IMG/VR virus record: IMGVR_UViG_3300022074_000484
Coordinates: 1 to 20,234 of that record
DNA length: 20,234 nucleotides
Reading direction: 5' to 3' (one strand)
Origin: a virus
Below the pieces are notes generated by a model, which saw nothing but the letters and a program-made list of their open reading frames with translations, did no database searches and had not been told where the DNA came from. Position 1 is the stretch's first letter, and each line of letters begins with the position of its first letter. A program made the translations under genes and the position numbers. Positions 5,316 through 14,240 of the stretch are shown one piece after another.

Positions 5316-5593
5316 TGGATTTAGATCAGCGCATATCTTGGCTCAAAATGCGAATAGCAGAAGCCAAAGCAAAGATAGAGGTAAAGCAAAATGATGAGTC
5401 TACTAGGAAGCCTGTTGGGCTTCGGGACGAGCTTTCTGCCGGAAGTTCTGAATTTCTTCAAAGCGGGTCAGGAGCACAAGCAGAAGCTAGAAACAATGAA
5501 GCTGCAAGCAGAGTTGATGGAGAAACGCTCCGCTCTGAAATTGCAAGAATTAGACAAGCAAGCCGATATCGCCGAGACAAAAGGGATATATGA
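5315..5593 (+). CDS. Possible small gene overlapping the holin out of frame
   Basis: 92 codons in the frame two positions from the holin; the last about 200 bases lie inside the holin gene. The ATG is joined to the preceding stop (TGATG), the arrangement used throughout this cluster for coupled genes. The first 26 residues (MDLDQRISWLKMRIAEAKAK and onward) look like a charged amphipathic helix, while the overlapping part has a composition expected of an out-of-frame shadow. It could be a real overlapping lysis gene, or a short leader whose translation carries ribosomes to the holin start at 5391 or 5394. No ribosome site is evident. Confidence 0.4.
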   Translation: MDLDQRISWLKMRIAEAKAKIEVKQNDESTRKPVGLRDELSAGSSEFLQSGSGAQAEARNNEAASRVDGETLRSEIARIRQASRYRRDKRDI

Positions 5594-5849
5594 GCATGAT
5601 CGAAGCATTGACGCTGGCGGATTTGTCAACGCTCTTCGCGGCAGTGTGCGCCCTGTTATTACTTACGCCTTCTTCCTGATGTTCGCAGCCACTGAAGTGG
5701 TGATTATTGTGAAGGTCATGGAGACCGGGGGAGACTGGAAGGACGCGGTGGAACTAATGTGGACGCCCGAAACACAGGGTTTGTTTGCAGCCATCATGTC
5801 CTTCTGGTTCGGTAACCGAGCGGTTAGCAAATACATGAAAGGCAAGTAA
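5391..5849 (+). CDS. Holin, 3TM family
   Basis: 152 residues from ATG 5391 (a second ATG at 5394 is also possible). It would form the inner-membrane lesions that release the endolysin. The layout is a hydrophobic N-terminal segment (4-23), a charged coiled-coil-like stretch (27-66, KLETMKLQAELMEKRSALK), a span at about 87-109 and a last span at about 127-141 ending in FWFGNRAVSKYMK. That Phe-Trp-Phe-Gly ending is what I recall as typical of the gene-transfer-agent/phage 3TM holin family (PF11351-like). The stop overlaps the endolysin start (TAATG at 5847-5851). GAGG about ten bases upstream is a plausible ribosome site. Confidence 0.85.
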   Translation: MMSLLGSLLGFGTSFLPEVLNFFKAGQEHKQKLETMKLQAELMEKRSALKLQELDKQADIAETKGIYEHDRSIDAGGFVNALRGSVRPVITYAFFLMFAATEVVIIVKVMETGGDWKDAVELMWTPETQGLFAAIMSFWFGNRAVSKYMKGK

Positions 5850-6361
5850 TGGAATCCAATTTTTTCAAAAGCCTTGAGATGGTTCTCAAGCATGAGGGTG
5901 GTTTTGTGGATCATCCGGAAGATCCCGGGGGAGCCACCAACAAAGGCATCACCCACAAAACTTATTCTGACTTTCTAGGCAGGCCCTTGGAGGACGTGAA
6001 TGAGTTACGCAACATTCCTGATGAGCATGTAGAGTTGATCTATAAGGAGGGATATTGGGATAAAGTCAAAGGCGACCAGTTGCCCGGCGGGGTAGACTTT
6101 TGCATCTTTGATTGGAGCGTAAACAGTGGCCCGGGTAGGGCAGCAAAGGCTTTGCAGAAAGCCGTGATGGCCGCGCAGGATGGGGCGATTGGTCCCATGA
6201 CATTAGCTGCTGTATCGGAGTTTAATGCAGAGGACATCATTAAGTCTGTAACAGAAGAGCGTGAGGCGTTTTACAGAAGTCTCAAGACTTTTGACACTTT
6301 TGGTAAGGGCTGGTTGCGTCGAAACGAAGAAACACGTGACTTCTCATTAGAACTGATATAA
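5849..6361 (+). CDS. Endolysin, GH108 family N-acetylmuramidase
   Basis: 170 residues, the usual length for glycoside hydrolase 108 lysozymes, which cut the peptidoglycan sugar backbone. The hallmark HEGGF (15-19) holds the probable catalytic glutamate E16. DPGGATNKGIT (25-35) is the conserved follow-on motif, and the C-terminal part (about 85-165: CIFDWSVNSGPGRAAKALQK, IGPMTLAAV, FYRSL) matches the peptidoglycan-binding half of these proteins. There is no signal peptide, so export through the adjacent holin is expected. The start overlaps the holin stop (TAATG). Its position between portal and capsid genes rather than at a genome end is notable. Confidence 0.92.
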   Translation: MESNFFKSLEMVLKHEGGFVDHPEDPGGATNKGITHKTYSDFLGRPLEDVNELRNIPDEHVELIYKEGYWDKVKGDQLPGGVDFCIFDWSVNSGPGRAAKALQKAVMAAQDGAIGPMTLAAVSEFNAEDIIKSVTEEREAFYRSLKTFDTFGKGWLRRNEETRDFSLELI

Positions 6362-9074: not shown

Positions 9075-9986
9075 ATGGCTATTTCAAGAGCACAACTAGC
9101 TAAAGAGCTAGAGCCCGGCCTCAATGCTTTGTTCGGGCTGGAGTATGATCGTTACGAGAACGAACATGCTGAAATCTTCGATGAAGAAGCGTCGGATCGT
9201 TCCTTTGAAGAGGAAGTGATGCTCGGGGGCTTCTCAACGGCACCTACTAAGGAAGAGGGCGCAGCCGTCTCCTTTGATGATGCCCAAGAGACCTTCACAG
9301 CACGGTACACACATGAGACTATCGCCTTGGCATTTTCCATTACAGAAGAAGCCATTGAAGATAACCTCTACGACCGTCTGGCATCTCGCTACACCAAGGC
9401 TCTGGCCCGCTCTATGGCTCAGACCAAGCAGATTAAAGCGGCAGCTATCCTGAACAATGCGTTCAGCACAGGTGCTTCTGCAATCGGCGATGGTGCAGCA
9501 CTTTGCTCTTCTTCACACCCATCTCTGTCGGGTAACCAGCGCAATCTGCTGTCAACCGCTGCTGACTTGAATGAAACTTCGCTTGAGCAGATGTTGATTG
9601 ATATTGCTGGTCTGACCGATGAGCGTGGTCTGAAGATTGCTGTACGCGGCATGAAGCTGATTATTCCGAAAGAACTGCAATTCATTGCAGAGCGAGTAAT
9701 CAATTCAAACCTGCGTTCGGCTACGGCAGATAACGACGCAAACGCGATCAAGAACATGGGGATGCTGCCCGAAGGCGCAGTCGTCAACCATTTCCTGACC
9801 GATACAGATGCGTTCTTTATCAAGACTGACGCCCCTAACGGCTTCAAGCACTTCAACCGTTCCCCAATCAAGACTGCAATGGAAGGTGACTTTGACACCG
9901 GAAACATGCGGTTTAAGGCACGTGAGCGTTATAGCTTTGGTGTTTCTGATTGGCGTTGTGTGTTTGGCACCCCGGGCGCAGCATAA
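9075..9986 (+). CDS. Major capsid protein, Mu gpT-like
   Basis: 303 residues. The opening LGLEYDRYENEHAEIFDEEASDRSFEEEVML-type pattern (roughly 15-55), followed by FSTAPTKEEGAAVSFDDAQETFTARYTHETIALAFSITEE in two parts, matches the Mu-like major head subunit family (gpT, PF10124-type) as I remember it. The later GGSxxxHPSLSGNQRNLL-like region (near 145-160, SSSHPSLSGNQRNL) and FKHFNRSPIKTAMEGDFDTGN (near 255-275) fit too. It would form the HK97-fold shell. The ATG has an excellent ribosome site, AGGAGGG at 9061-9067, and a strong terminator follows at 10009, both in keeping with very high expression. The sequence alone does not exclude another HK97-fold subfamily. Confidence 0.82.
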   Translation: MAISRAQLAKELEPGLNALFGLEYDRYENEHAEIFDEEASDRSFEEEVMLGGFSTAPTKEEGAAVSFDDAQETFTARYTHETIALAFSITEEAIEDNLYDRLASRYTKALARSMAQTKQIKAAAILNNAFSTGASAIGDGAALCSSSHPSLSGNQRNLLSTAADLNETSLEQMLIDIAGLTDERGLKIAVRGMKLIIPKELQFIAERVINSNLRSATADNDANAIKNMGMLPEGAVVNHFLTDTDAFFIKTDAPNGFKHFNRSPIKTAMEGDFDTGNMRFKARERYSFGVSDWRCVFGTPGAA

Positions 9987-10771: not shown

Positions 10772-11374
10772 ATGTCAACCACAGTTGTAACTGCAAAATT
10801 CATAAGCGACGAGAACGCTTCCGATGATGACCGCATTGTTACTGCGGCGCGGCCAGATACCTCGGCCACACTTGCCAATACAACCTTTGCTGGCGGGGGT
10901 GCTAGAAATATCATCGTGACCACGACAGGCACGGGTGATAACGGCAAAACCACCACGATTACTGGCACAGATGTCTTTGGGGATACTCTAACAGAAACCA
11001 TCACCTCAACGGGCAGCGCAGAGGCTGTAGCTGGTGAGAAGCTGTTTTTGACTGTCAGCGCAGTAGAGTGTTCTGCCAAGTACGCAGCCAATATCAAGGT
11101 TGGCTCTGGGGATCTTTGTGCAGAGGCCATTCAAGGTAACAATCGTATTCGTCTAAAAGGTTTCTCCATCGTTTCTGGGGGCACGGCGGGTGTCGTGGAC
11201 TTCTTCAACGGAACACCAGAATCTGGCACTGCGTTGTTTAAGTCGCGAACTATTGGCACGGACAATACTACCGTAGATAGGACAATACCTGACCAAGGGG
11301 TTTTGTTTGATAACGGTATGTCCGTTAAATACACCATAGCCACCATTGATATGATGACTTTCTTTCATGGCTAG
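10772..11374 (+). CDS. Beta-rich virion structural protein
   Basis: 200 residues, Thr-, Gly- and Ala-rich. The first half reads as repeated beta strands (IIVTTTGTGDNGKTTTITGT, then DVFGDTLTETITSTGSAEAV), and the C-terminal half as a compact domain with FKSRTIGTDNTTVDRTIPDQ, cut into two patches. Two cysteines are near residues 102 and 120. AAGGAG at 10760-10765 gives the ribosome site. It shares style with the preceding protein but is not obviously homologous. Function unknown; the likely role is in the head or tail surface. Confidence 0.7.
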   Translation: MSTTVVTAKFISDENASDDDRIVTAARPDTSATLANTTFAGGGARNIIVTTTGTGDNGKTTTITGTDVFGDTLTETITSTGSAEAVAGEKLFLTVSAVECSAKYAANIKVGSGDLCAEAIQGNNRIRLKGFSIVSGGTAGVVDFFNGTPESGTALFKSRTIGTDNTTVDRTIPDQGVLFDNGMSVKYTIATIDMMTFFHG

Positions 11375-11651
11375 GAAGAAGGACAAGCAGCCGCCTAAAA
11401 CTAAAAAGTATTTCCGTTCCACAAAGTCTGGTGCGGGAATGACAAAAGCCGGTGTGGAGCGTTATCGCAGAGAAAACCCCGGCAGTAAGTTGAAGACGGC
11501 TGTCACCGGCAAGGTGAAAAAGGGCAGTAAAGATGCAAAGCGGCGTAAGTCATTTTGCGCTAGATCTGCTGGGCAGATGAAGAAATTTCCGAAGGCGGCT
11601 AAGAATCCAAATAGTCGTCTGCGGCAAGCTAGAAAAAGGTGGAAGTGCTAA
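11367..11651 (+). CDS. Small basic protein, DUF6321-like
   Basis: 94 residues and extremely basic: Lys and Arg make up about a third of the chain. A recognisable block is GVERYRRENPGSKLKTAVTG followed by KVKKGSKDAKRRKSFCARSAGQM, which I recall from a family called DUF6321 seen in phages and large DNA viruses; that assignment is from memory. There are two cysteines (in SFCARS and at the end, WKC). It overlaps the upstream gene by eight bases and is the first of six tiny proteins. Binding of DNA or RNA is a reasonable inference from charge alone. Confidence 0.72.
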   Translation: MARKKDKQPPKTKKYFRSTKSGAGMTKAGVERYRRENPGSKLKTAVTGKVKKGSKDAKRRKSFCARSAGQMKKFPKAAKNPNSRLRQARKRWKC

Positions 11652-11809
11652 TGAAGGCCGACGACGTACTTAAACTTTTGGAAAAGCACGAAGAGGAGTG
11701 CAACAGCCGCTATGCTCAAATACAAAAGCAGTTGGATAAATTAGATCAACGGCTTTGGGGTATAGCTGGTTTAATTGTAGCCGCCGCTGTCGTGCAGAAA
11801 GTGTTTTAG
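11651..11809 (+). CDS. Tiny coiled-coil membrane-anchor protein
   Basis: 52 residues. A charged helix (1-33: LKLLEKHEEECNSRYAQIQK, then QLDKLDQRLW) leads into one hydrophobic span (about 37-51, WGIAGLIVAAAVVQKVF). The layout resembles XhlA-type holin-associated proteins and many marine phage membrane peptides. The start sits on the stop of the previous gene (TAATG at 11649-11653), and its own stop abuts the next ATG, so it is held within the basic-protein set although it is not basic. A membrane or lysis-accessory role is inferred. Confidence 0.75.
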   Translation: MKADDVLKLLEKHEEECNSRYAQIQKQLDKLDQRLWGIAGLIVAAAVVQKVF

Positions 11810-12058
11810 ATGACTAGCGCAGTAAGGTTGGGGGCCGGAGCTTGCCCTGTCAGGAAACGTGCTACCAAGGGCGTTGTCCGCATGAAAAAGGGCGGAAAGG
11901 TGAAGAGTGGTGGCAAGATATGTCCGGAAGGAAAGGCATGGGCTAAAAGGACGTTTGATACATACCCGTCAGCCTATGCAAACCTCGCAGCATCAAAATA
12001 TTGCAAAGACCCAAATTACGCCAAAAAGTCCAAAGGCGGAAAAAGGAAAGGTAGATAG
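11810..12058 (+). CDS. Small basic conserved protein
   Basis: 82 residues, with about a quarter Lys/Arg and several Gly-Lys pairs. The core, GKICPEGKAWAKRTFDTYPS followed by AYANLAASKYCKDPNYAK, is a pattern I recall from other marine phages, with Cys 13, 38 and 65. The ATG directly follows the preceding TAG; an internal ATG at 11881 is also possible, but the two extra dozen residues include a Cys and look coding. Function unknown. With its neighbours it might bind nucleic acid; this is inferred from charge only. Confidence 0.68.
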   Translation: MTSAVRLGAGACPVRKRATKGVVRMKKGGKVKSGGKICPEGKAWAKRTFDTYPSAYANLAASKYCKDPNYAKKSKGGKRKGR

Positions 12059-12063
12059 CAGTT

Positions 12064-12186
12064 ATGAAACCCCGAGCTAGAGCACAAGTGAAAAAGGTGG
12101 CGGGGAAGCTTAGAAAGGCTTCTAAAGCCCACGCTAAGCAAGCAAAAACTCTATCTAACTTGGTGAAGAAATCTAAGAGGTCCTAA
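12064..12186 (+). CDS. Very small basic peptide gene
   Basis: 40 residues, MKPRARAQVKKVAGKLRKAS followed by a continuing Lys/Ala/Ser-rich helix, with roughly 40 percent Lys and Arg. It reads as a single amphipathic basic helix, similar in style to histone-H1-tail-like or protamine-like peptides. It begins five bases after the previous stop and its TAA shares an A with the next ATG (TAATG at 12184-12188), the cluster's usual coupling. No ribosome site is strong. Real coding is supported by tight packing on both sides; the role is unknown. Confidence 0.6.
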   Translation: MKPRARAQVKKVAGKLRKASKAHAKQAKTLSNLVKKSKRS

Positions 12187-12566
12187 TGGGACAGCTAAAA
12201 GAATGGCTTAAACAAGATTGGGTGCGGATAGGCAGTGATGGTTCTATCAAAGGTAAGTGCGGTACTTCAAAAGACAAGAAGAACCCTGACCGGTGTCTTC
12301 CGCGGGCTAAAGCGCAAAGTCTTAGTAAGTCGGAAAGAGCCACCACTGCCCGTAAAAAGAAGCGGTCAGGAGCCAAAGGAAAGACTGTTGTATCTAACAC
12401 ACGAGCAGCTAAAGTCAGAAAGATGGGGAATGGCGGTGTTGCGATACCAACGACAACTGCAAAACGGCCATACAAAGGCAAAAATATTCCGGGGTCCGTA
12501 GTGGCCCGAGGATGCGGTGCGGTAATGCCGGGCCGGAGAAAGAGAACCACGGGTTCAGTTAGCTAG
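12186..12566 (+). CDS. Small basic protein, DUF5872-like
   Basis: 126 residues, Lys/Arg-rich throughout. The first half has LKEWLKQDWVRIGSDGSIKG then KCGTSKDKKNPDRCLPRAKA and SLSKSERATTARKKK, which I recognise from memory as the DUF5872 family found in phages and some large viruses. Two cysteines lie in that block and one more is near residue 114. The Gly-rich second half ends in GRRKRTTGSVS. It is the longest of the basic set and is coupled to the previous gene by TAATG. No catalytic motif; possible DNA-binding or packaged protein, inferred. Confidence 0.72.
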   Translation: MGQLKEWLKQDWVRIGSDGSIKGKCGTSKDKKNPDRCLPRAKAQSLSKSERATTARKKKRSGAKGKTVVSNTRAAKVRKMGNGGVAIPTTTAKRPYKGKNIPGSVVARGCGAVMPGRRKRTTGSVS

Positions 12567-12580
12567 AGCAGGAGCGAGAA

Positions 12581-12892
12581 ATGGCTAAAGAATTTATGAG
12601 TATGCAAGAGTATTACGCTGATCTTGTTGGCGGGGCAAAAGCCACACCAATGAAAAAAAAGGGTTTTGCTAACGGCGGTGCCGTCGGCAAAAAGAAGAAG
12701 AAGGGCTACGCTAATGGCGGGGCTGTAGGCATGAAGAAAAAAGGCATGGCCAAAGGTGGCAAAGTCCAGAAAATGGCTAATGGCGGCATGATGAAGAAAA
12801 AGGGCATGGCCAAAGGTGGCAAAGTCCAAAAGATGGCTAACGGGGGCATGATGAAGAAAAAGGGCATGGCTAAAGGCGGTAAGGTCAAGTAG
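12581..12892 (+). CDS. Lys/Gly repeat protein
   Basis: 103 residues. The first 25 (MAKEFMSMQEYYADLVGG and on) are ordinary; the rest is nearly all Lys, Gly, Ala, Met. It consists of KKKG...ANGGAVG elements, then a 20-residue repeat GMAKGGKVQKMANGGMMKKK, two full copies and a 9-residue third. There are no acidic residues after about residue 15, so it is strongly basic and probably disordered; nucleic-acid contact is inferred. AGGAG lies about 8 bases before the ATG. The next gene starts at GTG 12895, two bases after this stop. Copy-number change in the repeat would stay in frame. Confidence 0.7.
   Translation: MAKEFMSMQEYYADLVGGAKATPMKKKGFANGGAVGKKKKKGYANGGAVGMKKKGMAKGGKVQKMANGGMMKKKGMAKGGKVQKMANGGMMKKKGMAKGGKVK
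12743..12889 (+). repeat. 60-base in-frame tandem repeat
   Basis: Two full copies (12743-12802 and 12803-12862) plus a 27-base partial (12863-12889) of a 60-base unit coding 20 residues. The copies differ at only a few, mostly third-codon, positions. Confidence 0.9.
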
Positions 12893-12894
12893 TA

Positions 12895-13572
12895 GTGCCA
12901 TATCTTCAAAGCAACATTCCGCACTTTAAATGCTGGGTGCGGAGAGAGTACACATGCAACCATGCAAGATATCATGGTGAATTTTTACACGGCATGGCGA
13001 TAGCTGTTACAACGATGCCAAATCGTTGTTTGAGTTTTCAAATAATCTTTACGGGATGTGAAACAGACGACACAGAGGACGAAAATGTTCATGGTGGTGC
13101 CATGTGGGCAAGGATGCCGATTACGGCGTTGGTGGGTGACACGCCACTAGAGGAATGGCCGGATCCCATGCCGGTTCATGCGGCACAGCCGTGGGATTGC
13201 ATGTCTCATACTCATTCTGTGTATAGCTTAAACAGGGCGCAACCGTGTCCTTGGTTGGCAAAGATTGCAGGTCAGATGTTCCCGGCTAAATACTATTTCA
13301 CAGTAGACTATACAGAGAGTGAGATAGCGGACGACCCGGCGCAGCATAAACAAAGCCACGTTTTGGAGCTTTTAGATGCGGGTCAGTGGACAGGCAATAT
13401 CGTTGCTTTGCCAAACAATCGGGTGCGAGTAACTCATCCGGCGTGGTTTGAAACGGGACAAGGTGCTCCTGACTTTTTGCCTTCACAACACGTGCACTAT
13501 TCAAAATCTGATTTAGACTATACAATGGATGTCAATCAGATATTTGATAACCTATACGCGAAGGATGAGTAA
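12895..13572 (+). CDS. Conserved phage protein of unknown function
   Basis: 225 residues from GTG 12895. The opening MPYLQSNIPHFKCWVRREYT is one I recall from several marine phage contigs, as is the mid-protein AAQPWDCMSHTHSVYSLNRA; I know of no assigned function. It is globular with 5-6 cysteines and many aromatics, unlike the basic and beta-rich neighbours, and has no membrane span. AAGG at 12881-12884 is a weak ribosome site. Its TAA is joined to the next ATG (TAATG at 13570-13574), linking it to the neck-protein genes and suggesting a virion or assembly role by context. Confidence 0.7.
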   Translation: MPYLQSNIPHFKCWVRREYTCNHARYHGEFLHGMAIAVTTMPNRCLSFQIIFTGCETDDTEDENVHGGAMWARMPITALVGDTPLEEWPDPMPVHAAQPWDCMSHTHSVYSLNRAQPCPWLAKIAGQMFPAKYYFTVDYTESEIADDPAQHKQSHVLELLDAGQWTGNIVALPNNRVRVTHPAWFETGQGAPDFLPSQHVHYSKSDLDYTMDVNQIFDNLYAKDE

Positions 13573-14240
13573 TGGCCGTATCTGGGAGCGTAAACTTTGA
13601 ACTAAACGTAGCCGATTACGTTGAAGAAGCCTTTGAGCGTTGTGGCTTGGAGGTAAAAACCGGCTATGATTTGGTTACGGCCAGACGCTCCTTAAATCTT
13701 ATGCTAGCTGAATGGGCCAATCGTGGCCTCAACCAATGGACTATTACGCAACGCACACAAGCCCTTATTTCTGGCACACGTACATACTCACTGTCGGCAG
13801 ACGTAATTGATATCTTGAGCGCCGTAGTGACCCGAAGCAGCACAGATTTTGCCTTGACTCGGGTCAGTCGGGATGACGATCTAAACATCCCGAACAAAGC
13901 CACCACCGGGCGTCCTAGTCAGTTCTTTTTGGACAGACAGATCACACCAAGTCTTCGATTGTGGCCCACCCCAGAAAACAGCACAGACGTTGTCGTATAT
14001 AACGCTTTGACTCGCATAGATGATGGGGACACTGCAATCAACACGATGGACGTGCCTTTCCGCTTCTATCCCTGTTTAGCCGCGGGGCTTGCTTATTATA
14101 TTTCTTTGAAACGTGCACCTAATCGCACTCAGATGTTGAAAGCGATCTATGAAGAAGAGTTTGAACGTGCTATGGGCGAGGACCGTGACCGCTCCAGCTT
14201 TACGGTAACGCCCGAATACGCTTACTTTAGGACGAACTAA
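13572..14240 (+). CDS. Head-tail adaptor, P22 gp4-like
   Basis: 222 residues. The N-terminal half shows VADYVEEAFERCGLEVKTGY then ARRSLNLMLAEWANRGLNQW, the helix pattern I associate with P22 gp4-type connector proteins that attach beneath the portal and hold packaged DNA. A middle beta part (TRTYSLSADVIDILSAVV, FLDRQITPSLRLWPTPENS) and a C-terminal helix-rich part (PCLAAGLAYYISLKRAP, LKAIYEEEFERAMGEDRDRS) complete it. Its position after the head genes and before a second adaptor fits. Family call from pattern, not a search. Confidence 0.75.
   Translation: MAVSGSVNFELNVADYVEEAFERCGLEVKTGYDLVTARRSLNLMLAEWANRGLNQWTITQRTQALISGTRTYSLSADVIDILSAVVTRSSTDFALTRVSRDDDLNIPNKATTGRPSQFFLDRQITPSLRLWPTPENSTDVVVYNALTRIDDGDTAINTMDVPFRFYPCLAAGLAYYISLKRAPNRTQMLKAIYEEEFERAMGEDRDRSSFTVTPEYAYFRTN

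Follow-up and report, generated by a model that had tools for sequence, protein, structure and literature searches.

Phage T4 internal proteins IPI, IPII, and IPIII are found in about 360 copies each, bind DNA at low salt, and are ejected (PMC9026906), and ascovirus P64 is a DNA-condensing cationic virion protein with repeated two-cysteine motifs and basic repeats (PMC6163548). Like the five basic products of the six-gene cassette described here (genes A through F, Table 1), the T4 proteins are small, basic, and encoded with the head genes; this likeness is functional, no sequence relation was found between the two sets, and the propeptide and head protease feature of T4 was not seen here (no head protease family match was found among the window genes searched). 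P64 and the cassette proteins A, C, and E are cationic and have cysteine pairs, but P64 is an Arg/Ser-rich protein of a eukaryotic virus, and its motif (PF08793) is not matched by the cassette. On the other hand, the T4-GC119/phrog_727 proteins of cyanophages (PSSM2_123, S-SM1 SSM1_115, RN05-S, and S-SCSM1 gp029) share E-like, C-like, and DUF6321 segments with the cassette; they are single chains of 271-517 amino acids with an extra CW.GY..KG...NCV segment and belong to another class of phage, whereas the window has three separate genes. In the cultured SAR11 phage HTVC027P the same families are also separate (gp47-gp52; a Lys/Gly-type protein, C, E, D, and A), but there the C-E-D-A genes lie between portal and GroES, whereas the window cassette lies between capsid and adaptor.

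The DNA analyzed (the window) is a virus fragment of 20,234 bases, positions 1 to 20,234 of IMGVR_UViG_3300022074_000484. Its capsid protein shares 70-73% identity with those of the Pelagibacter phages HTVC023P and HTVC027P and of DSL-LC04 (73% for HTVC023P), and its gene order of portal, GroES, scaffold-like genes, capsid, cassette, and adaptor is that of HTVC023P-type phages. Judged by capsid identity and the matching gene order, the source phage is a marine relative of these podoviruses and akin to the phages of SAR11 bacteria. A sequence search of the PDB with the capsid and adaptor proteins gave no match. The order of head genes, cassette, and neck genes given in a preliminary description of this DNA holds, with the adaptor gene downstream and a single extra gene (12895-13572) in between. 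That gene has a PHROG match labeled "ferredoxin" and its HTVC023P counterpart is labeled PurM; both labels look wrong. At 5391-6361, amid the head genes in the portal-GroES interval, the window encodes a predicted endolysin and a possible membrane lysis protein.

Table 1. Cassette genes and the flanking head and neck genes in the window
Feature	Coordinates	Strand	Basis
A: DUF6321 protein, 94 aa, net +30, two invariant Cys	11367..11651	+	PF19846 50.2 bits; 52-sequence alignment
B: neutral short coiled coil plus membrane segment, 52 aa	11651..11809	+	family matches all sub-threshold
C: CPxGKAxAKRxFDTYPSAYAN...C protein, 82 aa, net +20	11810..12058	+	phrog_27331 6.5e-23; DUF5872 N-half type
D: basic peptide, 40 aa, net +15, HAKQAK motif	12064..12186	+	HMM matches in relatives
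E: 126 aa, net +27, three invariant Cys	12186..12566	+	phrog_23735 3.1e-23; DUF5872 C-half type
F: 103 aa, net +25, conserved N-terminal peptide then Lys/Gly repeats	12581..12892	+	tandem repeat, dN/dS
Major capsid protein (upstream anchor)	9075..9986	+	Pfam Phage_capsid_4 1.2e-14
Neck adaptor (downstream anchor)	13572..14240	+	phrog_12985 5e-24; homologue is the DSL-LC04 gene annotated as a Pam1-type adaptor

Six consecutive tiny genes, five of them strongly basic, had been reported at 11367-12892, and all six open reading frames are indeed there, nearly end to end, overlapping or separated by just a few bases. The five basic proteins have isoelectric points of 11.6 (A), 10.6 (C), 12.0 (D), 11.4 (E), and 10.5 (F), against 6.5 and no net charge for B and 4.8 and a net charge of -15 for the capsid protein. 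Shuffled sequence of the region gave 0-4 such basic frames (mean 0.75) against 3 observed; since shuffles sometimes reach the observed count, this test is not decisive, and Lys/Arg composition alone is weak proof. In NCBIfam the five basic proteins had no match other than a chance one to L13.

Chance origin is excluded by recurrence of the families in relatives, by invariant residues, and by low dN/dS ratios. Two samples of relatives were used. Across 80 loci collected via E the cassette families lie in recognizable order. The second sample comprises 57 loci that were collected via the capsid protein and run through to the adaptor; 45 of them carry E, 44 C, 38 F, 33 B, 28 A, and 10 D. The alignments of A, C, and E contain many invariant residues, including all the core cysteines (C64 and C94 of A; C38 and C65 of C; C25, C37, and C110 of E). 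Median dN/dS is 0.09 for C, 0.11 for E, and 0.13 for F (0.03 for the capsid protein) and, from few unsaturated pairs in each case, 0.08 for A, 0.17 for B, and 0.41 for D. Thus, A, C, E, and F are under purifying selection; D, which is under weaker constraint than the other families, has HMM matches in about 45 loci and in HTVC027P gp51. The preliminary description had let its proposal of a system depend on conservation as a set, and this is what is found for A, C, and E, which recur together and change address together, with B, D, and F joining them variably.

The change of address was followed in 25 loci that span both the portal-GroES and the capsid-adaptor intervals. In six of these A, C, and E are at the portal-GroES address, all three together each time, as they are in HTVC027P; at the capsid-adaptor address A is found in 16, C in 13, and E in 15, and none of the 25 loci has any of the three at both. 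Parsimony on the capsid tree gives at least two changes of address, although the strongly supported branches require only one; in the clade of the window all rows with a scored address are of the capsid-adaptor type. This occupation of one address or the other but never both, together with the joint relocation, shows that the A/C/E set behaves as one unit.

Protein A is a full member of Pfam family DUF6321 (PF19846), as its appearance had earlier suggested; it matches profile positions 6-72 of 72, well above the cut-off of 28.5 bits. DUF6321 is frequently the C-terminal domain of longer proteins, whereas A is a stand-alone member of the family. The family is present in >500 public phage records, mostly of cyanophages and SAR11 phages; it is labeled "hypothetical protein" in nearly all records among the matches listed and is named in no paper of the literature searched. 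In unrelated phages it adjoins head, neck, or terminase genes, and in S-TIP28 it is close to the terminase large-subunit genes. The matches from genome assemblies belong to a scatter of unrelated taxa, many of them adjoin homologs of phage capsid, portal, or adaptor genes, and a cellular origin was judged unneeded. The predicted structure of A is mostly helical (AF2 pLDDT 83), and that of E, of which the core only was modeled, is a small mixed core (mean pLDDT 65). Neither predicted fold found anything below an E value of 4 in the PDB, and the confident returns of a BFVD fold search were DUF6321 proteins, besides a few proteins that bear another name or none. A decoration role for DUF6321 is disfavored by phage P-SCSP1u, whose gene between the capsid and tail-tube genes is identical to the DUF6321 gene of P-SCSP1o; the cryo-EM shell of P-SCSP1u holds capsid protein only, so the DUF6321 protein is no ordered component of the shell there.

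The likeness to DUF5872 (PF19197) that had been noted for the cluster stands by way of the relatives, while the window proteins C and E themselves have no match to the model (cut-off 27.5 bits) and are not formal members. The C genes of relatives match DUF5872 positions 1-39, with the L180 gene (36.9 bits) the sole one to pass among the relatives tested, and the E genes of relatives match positions 47-109 below the cut-off. C and E would thus correspond to the N- and C-terminal halves of DUF5872 as separate genes; they are separate in the window, as in almost every relative, and the DUF5872 model is a single chain. Whole records of 12 phages gave only sub-threshold matches to the model. The genome of a Chrysochromulina virus has one named DUF5872 member (PMC12085832). 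The C-terminal tail of E (12489-12566 in the window, ARGCG.VM..RRK.T) also ends the C protein of 023Pt_psg01 (L085 5157-5351), from which it appears that short tails move between cassette genes.

In T4-like cyanophages the same modules are found fused. PSSM2_123 of P-SSM2 (T4-GC119) consists, in order, of an E-like segment, the CW.GY segment, a C-like segment, and DUF6321, and S-SCSM1 gp029 carries in one chain E (i-E 4e-8), A (2e-24), and, weakly, C (full E 1e-3). In S-CREM2 the modules are on two chains: gp137, a virion protein to whose C-terminus A is homologous, contains the A/DUF6321 segment (6.6e-29), and gp160 has a C-like segment (i-E 1e-4) and an E-like one that was recognized by reading and not by the E profile. 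Both PSSM2_123 and the S-CREM2 fused protein adjoin the terminase small-subunit gene. In profile comparison the window E protein matches the cyanophage E segments with an E value of 2.5e-6, and the match of the window C protein to the cyanophage C segment is weak (hhalign E 0.002, probability 13%); in neither comparison did any of 200 column shuffles score as high. Window-type and cyanophage-type C proteins both match the N-terminal half of DUF5872. The weak C comparison gains support from this and from stand-alone genes like the C segment of P-SSM2, which occur in the window-type loci L132, L151, L184, and L196 (72-84% identity; 72-87% with L187 included); in L184, L187, and L196 such a gene is flanked by A and an E-type gene. 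Roseobacter phage CRP-901 also has, between annotated genes (L087 6164-6292), an unannotated C segment of the cyanophage type with 72% identity to that of P-SSM2. By these comparisons A, C, and E appear to be the split-gene form of small cationic modules, each with conserved cysteines, that are fused on one or two chains in T4-like cyanophages; taken jointly with packaging alongside the DNA, as discussed below, this has in our judgment an even chance of being correct. When proteins occur as a fusion in one lineage and as separate chains in another, they frequently belong to a single complex.

Presence in the virion has been shown by others, for cyanophage homologs only. In CsCl-purified S-CREM2 virions, mass spectrometry detected 4 unique peptides of ORF137 and 7 of ORF160 (PMC10665884 Table 3), compared with 165 peptides of the capsid protein (PMC10665884); the ORF137 peptides could derive from the acidic N-terminal portion of that protein. 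S-SCSM1 gp029 was deposited as "virion protein", and the text of the S-SCSM1 study reports 45 virion proteins detected by MS (PMC9602691). The DUF6321 protein S-SZBM1_192 was absent from 30 detected virion proteins (PMC9146016). However, proteins rich in Lys and Arg are ill suited to tryptic digestion, and A yields one tryptic peptide of 7-30 amino acids (14 for the capsid protein), so this absence says little, and the poor yield suggests why proteomics may miss DUF6321 proteins. The preliminary idea of internal virion proteins is thus partly and indirectly supported, by the A, C, and E homologs in purified S-CREM2 particles, while a place inside the head is a supposition; "protamine- or histone-like" is apt as an analogy only, given the Lys-rich composition, the conserved cysteine pairs of A, C, and E, and the lack of any solved fold that A or E matches.

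The explanation we prefer, by analogy with the T4 internal proteins and with confidence that is evenly balanced, is that the basic members of the cassette are late, virion-associated cationic proteins that accompany the DNA in the particle. A, C, and E, and alongside them D and F, which are basic but variable, would be produced together with the head proteins, presumably late; they would enter the particle, as homologs of A, C, and E do, and sit against the packaged DNA inside the head, where they could contact it and neutralize its phosphate charge, and they would probably exit with the DNA at infection and so be delivered into the host. Charges of +15 to +30 on only 40-126 amino acids and the position among head genes support this reading, to which as a whole we give equal weight for and against; the fact that no more than 28 of the 57 complete capsid-anchored loci have A in the capsid-adaptor interval counts against it.

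The low S-CREM2 peptide counts (4 and 7 against 165) argue against a bulk condensing role, and they make a serious rival of the idea that the proteins are injected effectors, packed in low copy and acting in the host right after entry on the nucleoid, restriction-modification, transcription, or the ribosome, with DNA neutralization incidental. T4 IPI and Alt would be the models; the T4 precedent, conserved cysteines that suggest a specific fold, and the occurrence of A and D in some relatives but not in others, a pattern that resembles arms-race genes, all fit. But A, C, and E are under strong purifying selection and spread over very different hosts, unlike host-specific effectors, and we regard this idea as unlikely. 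The gene neighbors could also point to assembly or packaging factors, basic cofactors of the portal, terminase, scaffold, or neck that leave only traces in virions: at either address the neighbors are portal, scaffold, capsid, or adaptor genes, and homologs neighbor the terminase small-subunit genes in P-SSM2 and S-CREM2 and the large-subunit genes in S-TIP28. Any head protein would have such neighbors, however, and the S-CREM2 homologs were detected in CsCl-purified particles, which leaves this a rather improbable alternative.

Detection of homologs in virions likewise argues against a role in early host takeover, in which the proteins would bind nucleic acid of the host, be absent from the virion, and lie near head genes by accident, as does the fact that the cassette remains in the head region even after relocation. 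Small, very basic proteins are frequent among early phage proteins, and the temporal classes of HTVC027P genes are described as mosaic and discontinuous in an article whose text names no cassette gene in its expression classes (PMC12753301); we nevertheless hold the early role to be very unlikely. Similarly little credence is given to the last alternative, a hot spot that has gathered unrelated small genes with charge as their sole common feature. B, D, F, and other tiny families do come and go, and raw composition is near chance, but A, C, and E relocate jointly and are fused in other phages. A broader form of the packaged-protein reading is possible but doubtful: a mobile "phage chromatin" kit, in which several unrelated tiny Lys-rich families, with cysteine pairs in the core members, would cover or compact the packaged genomes of SAR11-type phages and cyanophages, and the parts would be freely split, fused, and relocated.

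Recognition of the split cassette and of its two addresses appears to be new, as do its match to cyanophage fusion proteins and its connection with virion proteomics. Together, the split SAR11-type genes, the fused cyanophage proteins, and the proteomics turn unknown ORFs into one testable hypothesis, namely that very abundant ocean phages package cationic proteins along with their DNA, and HTVC027P, which is cultured and has published RNA-seq (PMC12753301), is a ready test case.

The remaining cassette genes are more individual. B (56 amino acids if started at an upstream GTG in place of the ATG) accompanies the cassette and weakly resembles short coiled-coil proteins; it is a neutral coiled-coil membrane protein and stands outside the basic set. 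The Lys/Gly repeats reported earlier for one protein are those of F, in which a 60-nt tandem repeat (2.4 copies, 93% match) encodes KKKGMAKGGKVQKMANGGMM. The N-terminus of F (12581-12650) is a conserved acidic/hydrophobic peptide, MAKEFM.M.EY...LVGG, and a candidate targeting or cleavage peptide. The five basic proteins differ at their N-termini, and no capsid-targeting peptide common to them was found; the conserved acidic one is present only in F. Some A, C, and E homologs (in L083, L085, L182, L201, and L208) have the peptide YYxx[MLI][LIV] at their N- or C-terminus, with 6 cases seen in E against 0.2 expected from shuffling and 5 against 0.7 in A; it is rare in other head genes. With few cases, this possible terminal tag (YYxx[MLI]) is a lead only. 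An extra tiny basic family, GLYANIHAKRKRI...KGAPTAANFKRAAKTA, for which no Pfam family was found, lies repeatedly beside A/C/E (L182, L188, L190, L192, L195, and P-SCSP1o, L091 4189-4365). Cassette phages or parts of them are also present in single-cell contigs, mostly of Pelagibacteraceae (L182, L183, L188, L190, and L191), suggesting that these contigs derive from infected SAR11 cells.
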